Origin: Chitinivibrionales bacterium | GTDB lineage: Bacteria > Fibrobacterota > Chitinivibrionia > Chitinivibrionales > WJKA01 | Direction of reading: 5' to 3' | NCBI GenBank assembly: GCA_014728215.1 | Contig: WJLZ01000084.1 | Span: 1 to 64,000 of the forward strand | DNA length: 64,000 bases | In this document: positions 1,235 to 11,330 of the stretch, one piece after another | Numbering within the stretch: position 1 is the first letter of the stretch | Layout: every line of letters begins with the position of its first letter | Translations under genes and position numbers: made by a program | Notes under the pieces: model-generated | Database searches by the model: none | What the model saw: only the letters and a program-made list of their open reading frames with translations | What the model was told of the DNA's origin: nothing

Positions 1235-4200
1235 ATGCCTATGAAAAATCCGAACGACATCCCGCTGTTGATTTTCGACGGCGCCTGTGGAACGACAATC
1301 CAGACCATGCACCTTCCCAAATCGGCATGGGAAACCCATGAAGGGTGCAATGAATTCCTCAATCTTTCGGCACCCGATGCAATCGTTGAGATGCACCGCC
1401 GGTTCCTCGACGCCGGGGCAACCGTAATCGAAACCAATTCTTTCGGCGCCAACTCGATTGTGCTCAGTGAATACAACCTCCAGGATAAAACAGAAGCGAT
1501 CAACAAAGCCGCGGCACGCAATGCTCAGGAGGCTCGGAAAGAATTCCCCAAGGCGTTCATCGCCGGATCGATCGGACCGACAACCAAGCTCCCGACCCTT
1601 GGGCAAATTCCGGTTGAAACCCTGGCCGATTCGTTCAGAGTCCAGATACGATCCCTGATGGAGACCGGGGTCGATCTCCTCATCATCGAAACAGTGCAGG
1701 ACCTGCTGCAATTAAAAACCGCGCTCATTACCGCTCACGAGGTCTTTCATGACCTCAATCATGAAGTACCCATCATGGCATCCATAACCGTGGAACGGAC
1801 CGGTACCATGCTGATCGGCACCGAAGTTGCCGCCGTTGCAGCCACCCTCGAACCGTTCGACCTTTTTTCTCTGGGCTTGAACTGCGCCACCGGTCCCGAT
1901 CTTATGGCATCTCATCTCCACCTGCTCAGCAACACCATGCAATGCCGGATCTCCTGCATTCCCAATGCGGGAATTCCCGAAACAAAGGGCGACCAGGTGA
2001 TCTATCCCCTCCAGCCTCAGCCTTTTGCCGATTACCTTAAAGAGTATATCGAAGAATACGGGGTGAGTATTGTGGGCGGATGCTGCGGGACTACTCCCGA
2101 TCATATCAGGGCGCTGGCGCAGACAGTCAACAACGTGGTCCCGGGAAAGCGAAAACCCGAAAGTAAACCCGCAGTCAGCAGTGGCTTTGTTGCTGCTGAA
2201 ATTCAACAGGATATCCCCCCCTTCCTTATTGGAGAACGAACCAACGTCAACGGGTCCAAAAAGTTCCGGGAGCTGATTCTTGCCGATGATTTTGACGGTG
2301 CTCTTGCGATCGGTCTGCAGCAGCAGGAAAACGGCGCTCATGCGGTCGATCTCTGCACCGCCTATGCGGGACGGGATGAACAGAAGGACCTGACCACCAT
2401 GGTAAAACTCTTCGCCCAGTCGGTGAAAGCACCGCTGGTTGTGGATTCCACCCAGGCTGAATGTATCGAATCCTCCCTGAAAAACTACCCCGGCCGCTGT
2501 ATTGTCAATTCGATCAATCTGGAAGACGGTGGTAAAAACCTCGAAAAAGTCTGCACGCTGGTAAAAAAATACGGCGCAGCGGTCATTGCCCTCACGATCA
2601 ATGAAAAGGGCATGGCAATGACTATTGAAGACAAAGTCGAGACAGCCAAAGCGATATACCGTCTTGCGGTGGAAAAGCACGGGCTCCGCCCCGAAGACCT
2701 GCTTTTTGATGTTCTCACCTTTACCATCGGCTCGGGTGACACAACCCTGCAAGACGCTGCCTATAACACCATTGAAGCGATCAGAAAAGTCAAAGAGAAA
2801 TTGCCCGGCGTCTCCACCAGCCTGGGTGTCAGTAATATTTCATTTGGTCTTCTGCGTCAATCACGGAAATTTCTCAACTCGGTATTCCTTCATGAAGCAA
2901 TAGAAGCCGGACTCGATGCGGCGATTATCGATCCCGCAAAAGTTATTCCCCTGGCCCGAATGGATGAAGAGGACCGCAGGGTCTGTATGGATCTCATTTA
3001 CAACAGAAAAAGCGACGAAGTACCGTCACCGCTGGAACAGTTTATCAATCATTTCAGCGAAGCGGCTCAGGATGAAAGTGAAGAGAAAGACTCCGGTAAA
3101 GAGGTTATTCCCGAAGTAGCGCTTGCCGATAAAATTATGAAAGGCGATAAAAACGGCATCGAAGACCTCCTTTCAATTCTTATGGGACGGATGACACCTG
3201 TTTCCATTGTCAATACTCATCTTGTACCCGCCATGCGTCGCGTGGGAGAAATGTTCGGACGGGGTGAAATGCTCCTCCCCTTTGTACTCAAATCCGCGGA
3301 GACAATGAAAGCATGTGTGAAATACCTTGAGCCTTTTATGGAGAGTACAGAGCAGGAATCAAGCGTAAAAGTCCTTCTTGCCACAGTGCAGGGCGATGTG
3401 CACGATATCGGTAAGAACCTGGTCGATATAATCCTTTCCAATAACGGCTATAAGGTTTTCAATATCGGCACCAAGGTTCCGGCCGAGGTGATTATTGAAA
3501 AGGCAAAGGAGCATGACGTCGATGTTATCGGCCTGAGCGGCCTTCTGGTCAAATCGGCCCTGGTCATGCGAGACAACATGGAACAGTTTCAGGAAGCCGG
3601 TCTGACTGCCCCCATTCTTTTAGGAGGTGCGGCGCTTACAAAGAAATTCGTGGCCGAATCCTGCGTTCCAAACTACACCGCACCGGTGGTGTACTGTTCC
3701 GATGCCTTTGCCGGATTGACTGCGCTCCAGCAGATTGAAGAAGGAACGCTCAAACCAACCACAGTGGAAGTCGCCTCCGAATCTAAAAAGATGAAACCCG
3801 GGGCAAAAAATGAACACATTCGTCGTGACGTAAAGATCCCTTCCCCGCCCTTTCGTGGGACAAAAGTGATCGCCGATATCAATACCGAGACGCTGCTGGA
3901 GTATATCAATACCCAGGCCCTTTTCAGAGGACGGTGGGGGTATCGACGAGGTTCCATGTCGGCTGAAGAGTATAAAAAAATGATCGAGGAGAAAGTTGCC
4001 CCTCTCTATGAATCGCTCAGGAAACGGCTTATCGATGAAAAACTGGCCCGGCCTGCTGTTTCTTACGGCTATTTCAATTGCAATTCAAAGGGTGATTCAC
4101 TCGAGATACAATCGAACGGCAAAAACTATGAACTCACCTTTCCCCGTCAGGCCGATCCGCCACACCTGTGTATCGCCGATTATTTTAAGCCGGCCGGAGA

Positions 4201-4615
4201 GGGAACCGATGTTGTAGGCTTCTTTGTGGTAACCATGGGACCGGCAATCTCCGAGGCCACCAAAGAACTCTATGAATCCGATCAGTACCACGACTACCTT
4301 ATGCTCCATGCCTTAAGCGTGGAGCTTACCGATGCCCTTGCCGAATACTGGCATGAGGTGATGCGTACCGAAATGGGAATCAATACGCAAAAACCGAACG
4401 ATATTCTCGGCTATGCTGTCCAGGATTATCAGGGATCTCGATACGGATTCGGCTATCCTTCATGCCCCGATCTCGAAGCACACAAGGTTGTGTTCGAACT
4501 TCTGGAGCCGGAAAATATTGGAGTAGAATTAACCGAAAACATGGAGATGGTACCCGAGCAGTCAACCTCTGCGTTAGTGGCCCATCATCCGCAAGCCAAA
4601 TATTTTGCAGTATGA
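1235..4615 (+). CDS. metH: Cobalamin-dependent methionine synthase
   Basis: 1126 residues with all four MetH modules. The homocysteine domain (about 8-300) has zinc ligands C217 (NCATGP) and C283/C284 (GGCCGTTP). The pterin/methyltetrahydrofolate domain spans about 325-590. The cobalamin cap and Rossmann domain (about 640-800) carry D721-x-H723-D-x-G, where H723 is the lower cobalt ligand. The AdoMet activation domain (about 880-1126) includes the [11 protein letters not shown] motif. The enzyme transfers methyl from methyltetrahydrofolate to homocysteine through cobalamin, and the last domain allows reductive reactivation. The first ATG is used here; a second lies two codons on, and neither has a strong Shine-Dalgarno. 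The stop overlaps the rubredoxin start as ATGA. I saw no cobalamin or SAM riboswitch in the 197 bases upstream. Confidence 0.96.
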
Positions 4616-4773
4616 AACGATATATCTGTACACAATGCGGTTATATTTATGATCCCGCCAAAGGCGATCCGATGAATAGTATCCCCCCGGGAACTTCCTT
4701 TGAAGACCTTCCGGAGGACTGGGTCTGCCCGATGTGTTATTCCGGCAAAAATGCATTCGACATGCTCGATTAA
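4612..4773 (+). CDS. Rubredoxin
   Basis: A 53-residue single-domain rubredoxin. The iron site is C6-x-x-C9-G and C39-P-x-C42, with the family aromatics ([11 protein letters not shown], then W37). It is a small cytoplasmic one-electron carrier. The ATG overlaps the metH TGA in ATGA, which fixes the start and implies translational coupling; the next gene, also a methionine/folate enzyme, follows 67 bases later. Placement between two one-carbon enzymes suggests it supplies electrons for MetH cob(II)alamin reactivation or for folate reduction. This is inferred from position only; rubredoxin more often serves rubrerythrin or superoxide reductase, and a rubrerythrin-like gene lies about 4 kb away. 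Confidence 0.95.
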
Positions 4774-4840: not shown

Positions 4841-6676
4841 ATGAAAAATATCATCGACAGAATGAAAGAGAAACCTCTTCTGTTCGACGGTGCGACTGGG
4901 ACTATGTTGTATCAACGGGGCGTGTTTATCAATACCTGTTATGATGAGTTATGCCTGACAAAAAAAGACATTGTAAAAAGCATTCATGAAGAATACGTTG
5001 CGGCCGGGGCGGAGGTCATCGAAACCAATTCATTCGGGGCAAATCGAATAAAGCTCGGAAGTTTCGGACTTGTCGAGAATGTCGATGCGATCAATCGCGC
5101 TGCAGCATCCTGTGCCCGTAAAGCAGCAGGAGACACGGTTTATGTAGCCGGGTCGGTTGGTCCCTGTACCAAGGCACCCGAGGCATTTCCCGCTTCTAAA
5201 TATGAAGCGGTCAAAGAGGCATTCAAAGAACAGATCGAAAGCCTTACAAGAGCCGGAGTCGACTGCATTCTTTTTGAAACCTTTTCAAAGGAAGATGAGC
5301 TGAGACTGGCGATTGAAGCAGCCGCCGAAATTTCGATTCCCATCATCGCCTCCTTTACGGTAGGAACAAACAAAAAGACGGCATTCGGGACGCCGATGAT
5401 TGCCATGGTCTCGATGCTTCAGGAAAACAAACACGTGGATGCAATTGGAATCAATTGCGGTACCGGTCCTGCTGAAGCCCTTTCGGCACTTGAGCAGATT
5501 GTGAAACAGACCGACAAACCGGTTGTTGTCATGCCGAATGCGGGATACCCTCGTGAAGTTGACGGTCGTTTACTGTATCTGACTAATCCCGAGTATTTTT
5601 CCGAATATGCCAAGCGTTTCATCCAGGTCGGTGCCAGGGGAATCGGCGGCTGCTGTGGGACAACTCCCGGGCATATTGCAGCGATGACCCGCACAGTGAA
5701 AAATATCGACGGGATTAAGACCTATGCTACAGTAAAGAAGGCAGTAGAGCCGGCACCTGATATCGAAATAATACCGCCGAAAAATAAATCCCGTCTTGCG
5801 GCACGATTACTCGCAGGCAAAAAAGTAACATCGGTTGAGTTACTCCCCCCCCGTTCAATCGATATGTCAACCATGATCGAAAAGTCCCGTGCTTGCGCCC
5901 GCGCTGGTGTGGATGCCATCAATATCCCCGACGGACCCCGGGCAAGTTTGCGCATCTCCCCTATGATCGCTGCAATGACCATCGCCAAAGAAGCCGGTAT
6001 CGAACCGGTACTCCATTACTGCTGCCGCGACAGAAATCTCATCGGCATGCAGGCCGATATTTTAGGCGGATACGCAGCCGGGGTTGCCAATTTCCTGATT
6101 ATCACCGGTGATCCACCCAAGCTGGGAGCCTATCCCGATGCAACAGGTGTCTTTGATGTCGATTCTATCGGCCTCACCCAGGCTGTCACAAATTTAAACC
6201 GGGGTATCGATATCGGCGGTAGTTCTGTTACCCCACCCACCGGTATCTTTATTGGCGTAGGCGCCAACCCCTGTTCACTCGATATGGAACGGGAAATCGA
6301 ACGGTATCATCTCAAAATCAAAGCTGGAGCCGAGTTTGCAATTACTCAGCCGGTGTTTGATATTGATGCTCTCAACCAGTTCCTTGACAGGGTAAACAAA
6401 TTCGAAAAGAAAATCCCGATCATTGCAGGAATATGGCCGCTGATAAGCTATCGTAACGCCGAATTTATGAACAATGAAGTTCCTGGTGTTGTTGTTCCCG
6501 AACCGATTTTAGACCGTATGCGCGCATGTACGAAAAAGGAAGAGGGAATCGAGGAAGGAATCACTATCTGCCGTGAGTTGATCGACCGGATAAAAGATCG
6601 GGTAGACGGCTTTCAGGTAAGCGCACCCTTTGGTAAAGTAGAAATTGCGCTCCGGGTCCTCGAGAGCATTCTGTAA
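4841..6676 (+). CDS. Bifunctional homocysteine S-methyltransferase / methylenetetrahydrofolate reductase
   Basis: 611 residues, the YitJ-type fusion. The N-terminal homocysteine methyltransferase domain (about 8-290) has zinc ligands C206 (NCGTGP) and C271/C272 (GGCCGTTP). The C-terminal methylenetetrahydrofolate reductase barrel (about 320-611) has the FAD/folate features LITGDPPK and ITQPVFD. It should reduce methylene-THF to methyl-THF, the methyl donor for the neighbouring MetH, and may itself methylate homocysteine. A GGAGA ribosome-binding site precedes the ATG by four bases. It is the third gene of the metH-rubredoxin operon. No convincing terminator lies in the 39 bases before the convergent gene. 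A run of eight C lies in frame near 5846 but the frame is intact. Confidence 0.93.
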   Translation: MKNIIDRMKEKPLLFDGATGTMLYQRGVFINTCYDELCLTKKDIVKSIHEEYVAAGAEVIETNSFGANRIKLGSFGLVENVDAINRAAASCARKAAGDTVYVAGSVGPCTKAPEAFPASKYEAVKEAFKEQIESLTRAGVDCILFETFSKEDELRLAIEAAAEISIPIIASFTVGTNKKTAFGTPMIAMVSMLQENKHVDAIGINCGTGPAEALSALEQIVKQTDKPVVVMPNAGYPREVDGRLLYLTNPEYFSEYAKRFIQVGARGIGGCCGTTPGHIAAMTRTVKNIDGIKTYATVKKAVEPAPDIEIIPPKNKSRLAARLLAGKKVTSVELLPPRSIDMSTMIEKSRACARAGVDAINIPDGPRASLRISPMIAAMTIAKEAGIEPVLHYCCRDRNLIGMQADILGGYAAGVANFLIITGDPPKLGAYPDATGVFDVDSIGLTQAVTNLNRGIDIGGSSVTPPTGIFIGVGANPCSLDMEREIERYHLKIKAGAEFAITQPVFDIDALNQFLDRVNKFEKKIPIIAGIWPLISYRNAEFMNNEVPGVVVPEPILDRMRACTKKEEGIEEGITICRELIDRIKDRVDGFQVSAPFGKVEIALRVLESIL

Positions 6677-6715: not shown

Positions 6716-7450
6716 TCAGCCTCCGCGGAATTCTTCAAGCCGTTTAATGTGTTGCCGTTCATCACCGGCAAGTTTCATAAGCGTCGCTCGTACTGAAGGT
6801 ATTTTGGCATCCCTTGCGAGTGAAGAATAAAATGCGGAAGTCTGCCGTTCGTGCTCAATAGCATCCTGAATGAGGCCCTCAGTTGTTTCACGATCTGTGG
6901 TTATTCGAGATGGGGTTATCTCCGCCGGTTTTATCGGAACCTCCTTAACTTCGGGATGTTTTCCGCTCAATTGCCGAATATGGGCAATATGTTTTTCTTC
7001 CTCCCGGGCAAGGTCCAGAAAGAGTTCTCTGAGATCGGCATTACCCTGGCGCTGGGCCAGAAGGTGATAATCTCCAGCCGATGCTTCCTCGAATTGAGCA
7101 GCGGCATCAAGAATAATAGAACTCAGCACCCCGGCTTTCGGCATTACTCCTTCTGCAGCCGTCTCTTCTGCCCGGGCCTGAAAGGCATTGGCAAGCAGTA
7201 TAATTCCAAAGACAATAAACAACACGGCCGCGCCACCTTTGAGATAATGAATCGGCACGGCTTTTTGCAAAAAGGAGCCTGTAGCTACGGCGATTAAAGT
7301 TGCCAGAACCAGGGCAGACGCTGCGCCAGCAAAGACTGAAAGAGGCGATTTGGAACCTGCCGATGCGGCAAAGGATGCCAACTGCGTTTTGTCGCCAAGC
7401 TCCGCAAGAAAAATAAGCGAAAAAGTGCTGAAAAATAATTTCATGTCCAT
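6716..7450 (-). CDS. Fusion of a single-repeat Gdt1/UPF0016 membrane domain to a rubrerythrin-like ferritin domain
   Basis: 244 residues from an ATG preceded by GAAGGA; a longer TTG start at 7474 is less likely. Residues 1-90 form three hydrophobic helices with one copy of the Gdt1/TMEM165 cation-transport signature E17-L-G-D20-K-T. Residues about 110-244 are a four-helix ferritin-like domain with diiron-type ligands: E122, E151-x-x-H154, E201 and E231-x-x-H234, each helix-1 Glu six residues before an aromatic. Gdt1 proteins move Mn2+/Ca2+ and usually carry two repeats, so this protein would have to pair with itself. Fusion suggests coupling of metal transport to metal or peroxide sensing at the membrane, comparable in logic to MbfA (rubrerythrin plus a VIT/CCC1 transporter) but with a different transporter and reversed order. 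Function is inferred. Confidence 0.8.
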   Translation of the reverse strand: MDMKLFFSTFSLIFLAELGDKTQLASFAASAGSKSPLSVFAGAASALVLATLIAVATGSFLQKAVPIHYLKGGAAVLFIVFGIILLANAFQARAEETAAEGVMPKAGVLSSIILDAAAQFEEASAGDYHLLAQRQGNADLRELFLDLAREEEKHIAHIRQLSGKHPEVKEVPIKPAEITPSRITTDRETTEGLIQDAIEHERQTSAFYSSLARDAKIPSVRATLMKLAGDERQHIKRLEEFRGG

Positions 7451-7495: not shown

Positions 7496-8314
7496 CTATT
7501 TAAGAACTTCGTTCATAGACCCGGTCCGATATCCTCTGCAATCGATTGCAGCATAAACAAATCCCGCATCCCGACATAGGCTGTCGATTTTTTCTCTCAG
7601 TGACCAGGCTTTATCCATGTCGGAAGCTGCAATTTCTATTCGCGCGAGATTCTCATGACTCCGCACCCTGAACTGGGTAAACCCCAGCGCGCGAATTTCC
7701 TCTTCTGCCTTCCCGACCCTTTCCAATTTCTTTTTCGTGATTGTTTCTCCATAGGGAAAGCGGGAAGCCAGGCATGCATAGGACGGCTTATCGGCGGTTG
7801 CCAGTCCCAGGCTGCGGGATAAAGTGCGAATATCATCCTTTGACAAACCAGCGTCGCAAAGGGGAGATTTGACGCCTCTTTCGGCTAAAGCCTTTCTCCC
7901 CGGACGAAAATCATGAACATCATCGGCATTACTGCCGTCAAAAACTACCTCATATCCCTCTGCCTTTGCTATATGCCCGATAACATCGAAAAGCTCCCCC
8001 TTGCAGTAATAGCAGCGGTCGGGAGGATTGTTGGTAAATCCCGGTATGTCGAGCTCTTCGGAAACAATGATGCGCTGTTGCAGACCCAGGTTCCGGGCAA
8101 GGGCCTTGGATTCTTCCAGCTCAAAATGGGGATAGGTCGACGATGTTGCGGTAATCAGTAGAATATTGTCACCAAGGACATCACCGGCCACCTTTGCCAG
8201 AAAGGTACTGTCAACGCCCCCGGAAAAAGCTACTACCGCACTACTGTAAGAGGATATTATCTTCTTTAACTGCTCAAACTTATCTGTGTTCATTTCTGCA
8301 GTGCGCCTTTTCAT
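7496..8314 (-). CDS. larE: LarE-type ATP-dependent sulfur transferase
   Basis: 272 residues of the PP-loop ATP pyrophosphatase superfamily, with the P-loop SGGVDST at 31-37. The LarE marks RCYYCKGELF (C101, C104) and ACLASRFPYG (C181) are present. LarE adenylates and then sulfurates the nicotinate-derived precursor of the nickel-pincer cofactor of lactate racemase and related enzymes. Some LarE proteins sacrifice a cysteine, others hold a 4Fe-4S cluster on three cysteines; C101, C104 and C181 would suit the second kind. larB, larC and a racemase are not in the window, so the partner is unknown. Met8 is an alternative start. It lies 45 bases upstream of the Gdt1 fusion on the same strand and may be cotranscribed with it. 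Confidence 0.85.
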   Translation of the reverse strand: MKRRTAEMNTDKFEQLKKIISSYSSAVVAFSGGVDSTFLAKVAGDVLGDNILLITATSSTYPHFELEESKALARNLGLQQRIIVSEELDIPGFTNNPPDRCYYCKGELFDVIGHIAKAEGYEVVFDGSNADDVHDFRPGRKALAERGVKSPLCDAGLSKDDIRTLSRSLGLATADKPSYACLASRFPYGETITKKKLERVGKAEEEIRALGFTQFRVRSHENLARIEIAASDMDKAWSLREKIDSLCRDAGFVYAAIDCRGYRTGSMNEVLK

Positions 8315-8404
8315 CGGTAAAAATCGTACATAAATATCTGTTTCAGATACTCACAGTATTAAAAATATATCATTCACTAACCTTGACAATTCTATTGCCG
8401 GCAG

Positions 8405-8444
8405 GAATAAAAAAGTTGCTGCATGCCTCCGTGCATGCAGCAAC
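8405..8444 (-). terminator. Rho-independent terminator downstream of the rubrerythrin-like gene
   Basis: A perfect 12-base inverted repeat (8415-8426 with 8433-8444, six-base loop) is followed on the minus strand by six T. It lies 89 bases past the stop of the 8533-9027 gene and upstream of larE, so it should separate the two transcription units. Confidence 0.85.
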
Positions 8445-8532
8445 CACTCAGAAAGGAAAAGTGCTTTACGTTGGCGGGATTAACTATTAACATCAATTAT
8501 CATGCCGGCATTGTAATGCCGCTTCTCAGTGA

Positions 8533-9027
8533 TTAATACCGCGAATCGATTTTACTGAATTCGGCATCCTCAACCCATTGTTTGGGATTTCGTACCATTC
8601 TTATGATCTCCTCAACAATTCGCACATGTTTTTTTTCTTCACCAATAATAAAACCAAGTACATCTCTGGCATCCGAAGCTTTTACCTTTTCCAGTGCATC
8701 CTTGTAATATTGCACACTCTTCTTTTCCAGGCCCAGAGCTTTTTTATAGGCGTTTTCGGAATCATTAATAACTGCCGATTCACTGAATTTCGCCGATATT
8801 GCCTCAAAAGCCTTTCTGGCATTCCCGAGAATATCCTCTTCTGAGCCGCCATTTGCCGGATGTTTCTTTGAAATTTCATCGAAAAGATTATAGTGACGGC
8901 TCTCTTCATCGGCCATCTGATTAAATACCCCCTTCAATTCGGGCACGGATGTCTCTTGGGCGAGTGTGACATAATAATCACGACCTTCCCGCTCCAGACT
9001 CTTTGCAAAATCCCAGATTTCATTCAT
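8533..9027 (-). CDS. Rubrerythrin-like ferritin-family protein without rubredoxin domain
   Basis: 164 residues, all helical, with a duplicated rubrerythrin-type diiron pattern: E12 six residues before Y18, E42-x-x-H45, then a second Glu before Tyr-Tyr (GLEKKSVQYY) and an EExxH motif (GEEKKH). It lacks the CxxC pairs of a rubredoxin tail, so it is an erythrin-only form. It probably reduces peroxide or senses iron in the cytoplasm, using an external electron donor. An AAAGGG ribosome-binding site precedes the ATG. It lies 46 bases downstream of the ferritin gene on the same strand, so a two-gene transcript ending at the 8405-8444 terminator is likely. The domain resembles the soluble half of the nearby Gdt1 fusion. 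Confidence 0.85.
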   Translation of the reverse strand: MNEIWDFAKSLEREGRDYYVTLAQETSVPELKGVFNQMADEESRHYNLFDEISKKHPANGGSEEDILGNARKAFEAISAKFSESAVINDSENAYKKALGLEKKSVQYYKDALEKVKASDARDVLGFIIGEEKKHVRIVEEIIRMVRNPKQWVEDAEFSKIDSRY

Positions 9028-9073: not shown

Positions 9074-9616
9074 TTAAGCGCCTTTCATTGCCGATTCGAT
9101 GCCCTTACTGAAATCGGTGGGAACAGTGGTAATACGCGCAGCAAGGTCCCGGTCGATCATCATGAGCGCCTGAGCATTATCACCCGCTACCTTCAGCATA
9201 CCGATGATGTCATTATCATTTTCCTCTTCTTCAACCTGCTCCGTAACATACCATTGCAGAAAAATCTGTGTGGCATGGTCTTTCTCCTGTATAGCAAGCT
9301 CAATCAGATCGTTAAAACACCGGGTAATGAACTGCTCGTGCTTCAAGGTGGCCTGAAACATGTCCATCGGGGATTTCCAACTTGACGGCGGTTCTTTGAT
9401 CGCCTGAAGCTTGGCGCTTCCTCCCTGGCGCTGGATGTATTCATACAGTTTCATCGCATGAAGCATCTCCTCGTGATACTGCACCATAAACCAGTTGCCA
9501 AAACCCTTGAGCCCCTGATCGGTGGAATGAGCAGACATCGCCATATACAAATAGGCAGAGTACATCTCATTATTGATCTGACCATTCAACGCCTCTACCA
9601 TTTTATCACTCAACAT
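9074..9616 (-). CDS. ftnA: Bacterial non-haem ferritin
   Basis: 180 residues, the normal length of bacterial ferritin. The ferroxidase signature is clear: NEMYSAYLYM on helix A, YHEEMLHAMK on helix B, and an acidic EEEENDND stretch later. It should assemble into a 24-subunit shell that oxidises and stores iron in the cytoplasm. The start ATG has AAAGGAG five bases upstream. The neighbours on this strand (rubrerythrin-like protein, superoxide dismutase, Gdt1-ferritin fusion) make an iron and oxygen-stress group. I could not identify a Fur or PerR operator with confidence in the 92-base upstream gap. Confidence 0.95.
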   Translation of the reverse strand: MLSDKMVEALNGQINNEMYSAYLYMAMSAHSTDQGLKGFGNWFMVQYHEEMLHAMKLYEYIQRQGGSAKLQAIKEPPSSWKSPMDMFQATLKHEQFITRCFNDLIELAIQEKDHATQIFLQWYVTEQVEEEENDNDIIGMLKVAGDNAQALMMIDRDLAARITTVPTDFSKGIESAMKGA

Positions 9617-10385: not shown

Positions 10386-11132
10386 CTAACCCTTTTTTTC
10401 TTTTCGAGCCAGATCAAATTTCTGCCCGGCAAAATCCCAGTTAACTAATTTATCGAACCAGGCATCGATATAGTTTTCCTTTTCATTTTGATAATCCATA
10501 TAATACGCATGCTCCCAGACATCAATCGTTACAAGCGGAATCTGCTTATCCAGCAAGGCATTGTCGTGATAGGTGGTCCTGCTGACGAGTAATTCGTCTC
10601 CATCGTAAGCAAGCCATACCCATCCACTGCCGGGCATCATTGCCTTCTTTACAAATTCCCTTCTGAAAGCATCAAAGCTTCCAAAAGATTCGTCTATTTT
10701 TTTACCAAGATTCCCTTCAAGCTTCCCACCGCCACCGGGTTTCATGCTTTTCCAGTATAAATCATGATTCCATGCCAGGAGTGCCATATAAAAGGTGGCT
10801 TCCTCAATACCCTTAATGCTCCCATGGGTTTTAAGAATGATTTCAGACAGGGGAATGTCTGCATATTCAGTCCCCTTTATCTGTTTTGAAACCAGATCAT
10901 AATAGCCTTTATGATGCTTGATATAATGCAAATCCACCGTTTTCTTACTGATATACGGCTCCAGCGCATCCAGCGCATAGGGCAGTGACGGTTGGACTAA
11001 CCCTTTCTTTTCTTGGGCAGCAAATGTTTTCTGAGGATTAAAAAATGAAGTGGCGGCAATACCTGCTGCGCCGATGGCGATTCTTTTTGCAAAATCTCTT
11101 CGATCAATACCACGGGACCCATATTCATCCAT
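10386..11132 (-). CDS. Superoxide dismutase (Fe/Mn family) with Tat signal peptide
   Basis: 248 residues from the ATG with AAAGGAG eight bases upstream; an ATG 33 bases further up is less likely. The N-terminus has a twin-arginine motif (RRDFAKR from residue 11) followed by a hydrophobic stretch and an Ala-x-Ala-type end near residue 38, so folded enzyme should be exported to the periplasm. The mature domain has all metal ligands of the family: His in LHYIKHH, His in WNHDLYW, and Asp/His in DVWEHAYY. It converts superoxide to peroxide and oxygen. Metal preference cannot be settled; a His in TTYHDN may replace the usual second-sphere Gln, as in some cambialistic enzymes. Most family members are cytoplasmic. 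Confidence 0.93.
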   Translation of the reverse strand: MDEYGSRGIDRRDFAKRIAIGAAGIAATSFFNPQKTFAAQEKKGLVQPSLPYALDALEPYISKKTVDLHYIKHHKGYYDLVSKQIKGTEYADIPLSEIILKTHGSIKGIEEATFYMALLAWNHDLYWKSMKPGGGGKLEGNLGKKIDESFGSFDAFRREFVKKAMMPGSGWVWLAYDGDELLVSRTTYHDNALLDKQIPLVTIDVWEHAYYMDYQNEKENYIDAWFDKLVNWDFAGQKFDLARKEKKG

Positions 11133-11330
11133 ACACAAAGCTCCTTTAAAGGTTATATTTGGCATACAATGCCCATAAAGGGACTAACCAAATATATAAA
11201 TATACTTCGGAGGATGCAATTATCGTGCCAAATTGCCCCAAATTGAGCCAAAATAACCAGGCATGCAAATTGCAGTGATAGTTTTTAAGAAATTTAAAAA
11301 ACAGACAATCCCAGGTGGAGAGAAAACAGT

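Follow-up and report, generated by a model that had tools for sequence, protein, structure and literature searches.

The window analyzed here, a 64,000-nucleotide stretch of contig WJLZ01000084.1 from a Chitinivibrionales bacterium, carries a minus-strand row of sodB-like, hypothetical, ferritin, rubrerythrin-like, and larE genes. The row ends with a gene predicted from its domain matches to encode half of a Mn-type membrane transporter and, attached to it, a ferritin-like metal-binding domain. The features of this region are as follows.

6716 to 7450, minus strand: Gdt1-ferritin-like fusion gene, 244 amino acids (aa), with ATG at 7450 and stop at 6716 to 6718
7205 to 7429, minus strand: single Gdt1/UPF0016 repeat, aa 8 to 82, three transmembrane (TM) helices (PF01169, E = 4e-22; coordinates from a six-frame search)
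6737 to 7114, minus strand: ferritin-like/rubrerythrin-type four-helix bundle, aa 113 to 238 (PF02915, E = 3e-12)
7496 to 8314, minus strand: larE-like ATP-dependent sacrificial sulfur transferase (TIGR00268, E = 1e-95)
8362 to 8389, minus strand: weak promoter-like site 5' of larE (9/12 consensus match)
8414 to 8445, minus strand: strong intrinsic-terminator-like hairpin, 13 pairs plus a T run (consensus match only)
8533 to 9027, minus strand: stand-alone rubrerythrin-like diiron protein (PF02915, E = 3e-13)
9074 to 9616, minus strand: ferritin (PF00210, E = 1e-43)
10386 to 11165, minus strand: Fe/Mn superoxide dismutase (SOD) (PF00081/PF02777) whose sequence shows a twin-arginine-like RRDF signal at the N terminus

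The fusion gene has a Shine-Dalgarno-like AAGGAT 5' of its ATG, and translation of the open reading frame (ORF) from 7450 to 6716 gives a protein that begins MDMKLFF and ends EEFRGG (residues are numbered from ATG 7450). Its start conforms to M-[DE]-x-[KR], which is common to the fusion homologs. An earlier reading of this DNA, made from the sequence only, had proposed that both domains lie on one polypeptide, with a stop or frameshift between them as the refuting outcome; we looked for such a break and found none, and at least ~35 genomes have this architecture open over its full length. Because these stop-free copies come from six phyla, an artifact (a frameshift, a misassembly, or a chance ORF merging two genes) is practically ruled out.

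The N-terminal half scored 78.8 bits against PF01169 (gathering cutoff, 27), and 28 of 28 fusion members matched the model. The family's E-x-G-D-[KR]-[TS] motif and three TM helices per repeat were present, the motif reading E17-L-G-D20-K21-T22 in the window copy. E-L-G-D-K-T-Q was invariant in all 28 aligned fusions, and this strict conservation argues that transport is under selection. The profile match and the three long helices of an AlphaFold2 model bear out the single Gdt1 repeat that had been read from the motif and the helices.

The PF02915 (Rubrerythrin) match to the C-terminal half also exceeded its gathering cutoff. Predicted dimetal ligands in the window copy are E121, E151xxH154, E201, and E231xxH234, in agreement with the two E...ExxH sets and complete ferritin-like domain described previously. 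All six were invariant in 28/28 aligned fusions, against a mean column identity of 47%; nine columns of the ferritin-like part were invariant in this alignment, and six of them are ligands. When diverged copies were added, both E/ExxH half-sites of the ferritin-like dimetal superfamily were kept in 28 of 31 sequences, the losses being in L042, L074, and L095. The C-terminal domain is thus a putative dimetal (Fe/Mn) binder. Since bacterioferritin, Mn catalases, and rubrerythrin-like proteins all have the E, ExxH, E, ExxH pattern, neither the metal nor the chemistry follows from it, and the predicted ligand set distinguishes neither Fe from Mn nor a sensor from an enzyme. Compared with rubrerythrin, the fusion is membrane anchored and lacks both the rubredoxin-like FeS4 domain (no PF21349 match in the fusion; the rubrerythrin beside the L114 fusion does match) and the extra helix-C Glu (Glu-97 in the Desulfovibrio vulgaris protein). 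The corresponding position 204, +3 after the helix-C ligand, was T, M, S, A, I, or L in 31 sequences and never Glu.

In the AlphaFold2 model (mean pLDDT, 80.6), the three long helices were followed by a four-helix bundle; relative domain placement is unreliable at its pTM of 0.55. Foldseek searches of the PDB returned TM1526, Mn catalase KatB, 2fzf, and rubrerythrin among the top matches. The E-values were weak (0.02 at best), probably owing to a match over only part of the model. A sequence profile search gave the best solved relatives, namely, Pyrococcus furiosus 2fzf (E = 3e-11) and TM1526 (E = 8e-10), which share the rubrerythrin/TM1526-type four-helix bundle and E/ExxH/E/ExxH ligands.

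At least ~35 full-length fusion relatives are known, from uncultured bacteria of six phyla (Fibrobacterota, Spirochaetota, Planctomycetota, Kiritimatiellota, Verrucomicrobiota, and Lentisphaerota, according to titles and tree labels). Nearly all of the genomes are metagenome assembled, and many are incomplete. The full fusion occurred in 6 of 61 relative genomes (the window's own and five of the same order), and a search through 84,980 species genomes gave at least ~25 further full-length matches at 30 to 49% identity, although two contigs among the matches listed were already in the 61-relative set. A sample of 294 Planctomycetota genomes held seven full-length fusions plus one split across contig ends, and viral contigs yielded a single distant Gdt1. 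One candidate partial fusion, L079, proved to be a singleton of 90 aa with an unrelated gene behind it. A tree of 91 Gdt1 repeats, which rests on 98 columns and is moderately supported, placed 34 of 35 fusions in one group (ultrafast bootstrap, 92; SH-aLRT, 94). The exception was the diverged L042, and the sole singleton inside the group was the tandem partner of L095. This grouping argues for a retained functional unit, and the simplest reading is a single origin of the fusion followed by spread or losses. The earlier reading named no prior description of the architecture, and in the open-licence literature we likewise found no paper joining UPF0016 or TMEM165 with rubrerythrin; the one paper with "ferritin-like" instead is a general Mn review. 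A prior listing in domain databases is possible.

The closest counterparts of the membrane half are the single-repeat UPF0016 singletons (Demaegd et al. 2014, PMC4067407), with which it shares the PF01169 repeat, E-x-G-D-[KR]-[TS], three TM helices, balanced loop charges, and, presumably, the need for a second copy to form a transporter. Singletons are ~90 aa long with nothing past TM3, whereas the fusion adds ~150 residues with the dimetal four-helix bundle. Antiparallel dimers are the form in which single-repeat UPF0016 proteins are thought to work; yeast gdt1 is complemented by a singleton or by a coexpressed pair (PMC4067407). The fusion was the only protein above the PF01169 cutoff in 30 of 31 fusion genomes, a second Gdt1 partner being found solely in the L095 genome. 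If two repeats are needed, the fusion must therefore self-associate, in keeping with the suggestion that the single repeat would have to dimerize to form a pore.

Lysine plus arginine counts in the loops averaged 3.60 on the N-terminal side and 3.46 on the C-terminal side, were exactly equal in 19 of 35 fusions, and resembled those of single-repeat singletons. On sequence grounds, this balance, which the earlier reading had not pointed out, appears to be a dual-topology signature despite the folded domain at one end. In an antiparallel homodimer, the two ferritin-like domains would lie on opposite sides of the membrane. Such a dual-topology antiporter for Mn (or Fe), with metal or peroxide sensing on both faces, is conceivable though unlikely. 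That a charge-balanced repeat would be expected to insert both ways while carrying a 15-kDa soluble domain is a puzzle of membrane protein evolution.

One locus shows a paired-gene state outside cyanobacteria: at L095 (9986 to 11003), the fusion has a diverged C-terminal domain and overlaps with a Gdt1 singleton beside it. The fusion is charge biased (C terminus inside) and the singleton oppositely biased (6 versus 1), as in cyanobacterial Gdt1 a/b pairs; unlike those, a member of this pair bears a diverged C-terminal domain and the host is a spirochete. The charge bias would put that domain, with its degraded ligands, in the cytosol, and such a pairing is the evolutionary step that would be expected next.

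MntP, a Mn exporter that belongs to an unrelated family (PF02659) without an accessory domain, was found in 1 of 35 fusion genomes (0 of 15 and 1 of 20 in two sets); three of the 35 carry ligand-lost copies and one a split copy. Among non-fusion relatives within the phylum, 34 of 55 carried it (Fisher P = 0.005, ignoring shared ancestry), as did 80 of 241 genomes from the phylum of one Kiritimatiellae member (1/15 versus 80/240; Fisher P = 0.04, again ignoring shared ancestry). Within families f2, f4, and f7, the fusion genomes lacked MntP and several of their kin had it. This complementary distribution suggests that the fusion probably shares a cellular role with MntP, although 20 of 61 relatives had neither Gdt1 nor MntP, which counts against the argument. 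Characterized UPF0016 members transport Mn (PMC8236900), and MneA of Vibrio cholerae exports it (PMC13274385). Together with the near absence of MntP, this favors Mn over Fe, and Mn export is the favored candidate activity of the fusion. Of the two metals proposed by the sequence-only reading, manganese is thus the more likely.

The larE-like gene and the fusion, separated by a 45-bp gap, are probably cotranscribed, but the hairpin at 8445 to 8414 splits the row between the rubrerythrin-like gene and larE, so the ferritin and rubrerythrin-like genes are probably not on one transcript with larE and the fusion. Promoter-like sites such as the one 5' of larE are insignificant alone (12 found versus 8.3 expected from shuffles). 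A metal and oxidative stress theme recurred at two other loci: in G003 (L114), desulfoferrodoxin lies 16 bp upstream of the fusion and rubrerythrin 85 bp downstream, and in G022 (L113), a DtxR/MntR-family regulator lies just downstream. A DmeF-type cation effluxer follows the L022 fusion. A conserved operon was sought across phyla and not found: outside Fibrobacterota, neighbors were mostly unrelated, and the only recurring one was a stand-alone rubrerythrin-like relative (four loci, two of them close kin). The ferritin, rubrerythrin, and SOD genes that had been invoked in support of a metal- or peroxide-related role lie near the window copy and fit this theme, but the hairpin sets the ferritin and rubrerythrin-like genes apart. 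No Rfam riboswitch was found near the fusions, and no Mn riboswitch near 27 fusion loci or the window; a Mn riboswitch was also missing near 16 single-repeat controls, which makes its absence near the fusions uninformative. The RRDF signal suggests that the SOD is possibly exported.

We consider the fusion to be a Mn(II), or possibly Fe(II), exporter built as a homo-oligomer of single-repeat Gdt1 subunits, in which the dimetal domain would link export to metal load or oxidative stress (probability, roughly 0.5). As a Gdt1-family cation/proton antiporter, the oligomer would let Mn(II), or possibly Fe(II), leave in exchange for protons. The ferritin-like domain would hold a two-metal (Fe/Mn) center beside the pore, and this center, by binding the same metal or reacting with peroxide, may modulate transport or supply the ion, thereby coupling export to metal load or oxidative stress. 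The sequences show the architecture, the conservation of both motifs, the fusion as sole Gdt1 protein of its genome (30/31), and the rarity of MntP; we infer the direction of transport, the metal, dimerization, and a part for the dimetal domain in gating or delivery. Gating by a diiron center that senses peroxide or metal, as originally put forward, is a reasonable inference only. An antiparallel dimer would also count against this exporter, since no more than one of the paired ferritin-like domains could then face the cytosol.

The known protein most like the fusion is MbfA, in which a ferritin-like dimetal domain is also covalently joined to a transition-metal transporter in an oxidative stress context. 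The order in MbfA, ferritin-like domain then transporter, is reversed in the fusion, which also lacks the VIT/CCC1 domain (no PF01988 match; NF045676, 29.5 bits against a cutoff of 450), so the earlier contrast with MbfA, a different transporter family in the opposite order, was upheld. It is possible, if rather doubtful, that the fusion is nonetheless an MbfA-like iron exporter whose ferritin-like ferroxidase or Fe(II) acceptor feeds the Gdt1 pore and protects against iron and peroxide. The ferritin-like domain of MbfA is ferroxidase active and required for transport through the attached VIT transporter (PMC7762939). The MbfA model matched the fusion weakly (E = 5e-7, far under the cutoff), in the ferritin-like part alone and in 13 of 28 members, and the window copy has a ferritin gene nearby. 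However, characterized Gdt1 members move Mn or Ca, the window genome, G022, and G028 each have a separate VIT-family protein, and the rarity of MntP favors Mn.

It seems improbable that the ferritin-like domain is an enzyme tethered to the membrane, either a peroxide reductase or one like Mn catalase, with the Gdt1 part mainly supplying or recycling its metal. Mn catalase KatB and rubrerythrin among the weak Foldseek matches, and the G003 cluster with desulfoferrodoxin and rubrerythrin, would fit such an enzyme, but the rubredoxin-like domain and the +3 Glu are absent and the strictly conserved Gdt1 motif points to selection on transport. Still more remote is a transporter that metallates exported or membrane enzymes, as TerC proteins are proposed to do (PMC10550928), and whose ferritin-like domain serves as metal reservoir or chaperone. 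The apparently exported SOD five genes upstream of the fusion in the window is in line with this, but no exported metalloenzyme recurrently adjoined the fusion in other genomes. Metallation of Tat substrates, moreover, usually precedes export.

If the exporter reading is true, the fusion would be a second, independently built union of a ferritin-like dimetal domain with a transition-metal transporter, after MbfA, which would imply that linking the export of metal to a diiron site is a general solution. The fusion may thus serve as a tractable system for asking whether a diiron center gates transport.

Metal-binding tails of more than one kind seem to have been added to single-repeat Gdt1 proteins. 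In Planctomycetota, L111 (1501 to 2034) and L112 encode a single-repeat Gdt1 with ~80 C-terminal residues bearing CxxC...HH...CxxC and no further Pfam domain; by sequence inspection, a gene for a ZIP-like transporter immediately precedes the one in L111. Elsewhere in the window, positions 4841 to 6676 encode a fusion of homocysteine S-methyltransferase and methylenetetrahydrofolate reductase (PF02574 plus PF02219), which adjoins a second large MetH-like gene (1235 to 4615) and a rubredoxin-like ORF (4462 to 4773). A 170-aa protein at 525 to 1037, with no Pfam match, carries a CCxxHD motif that recalls phospholipase A2.
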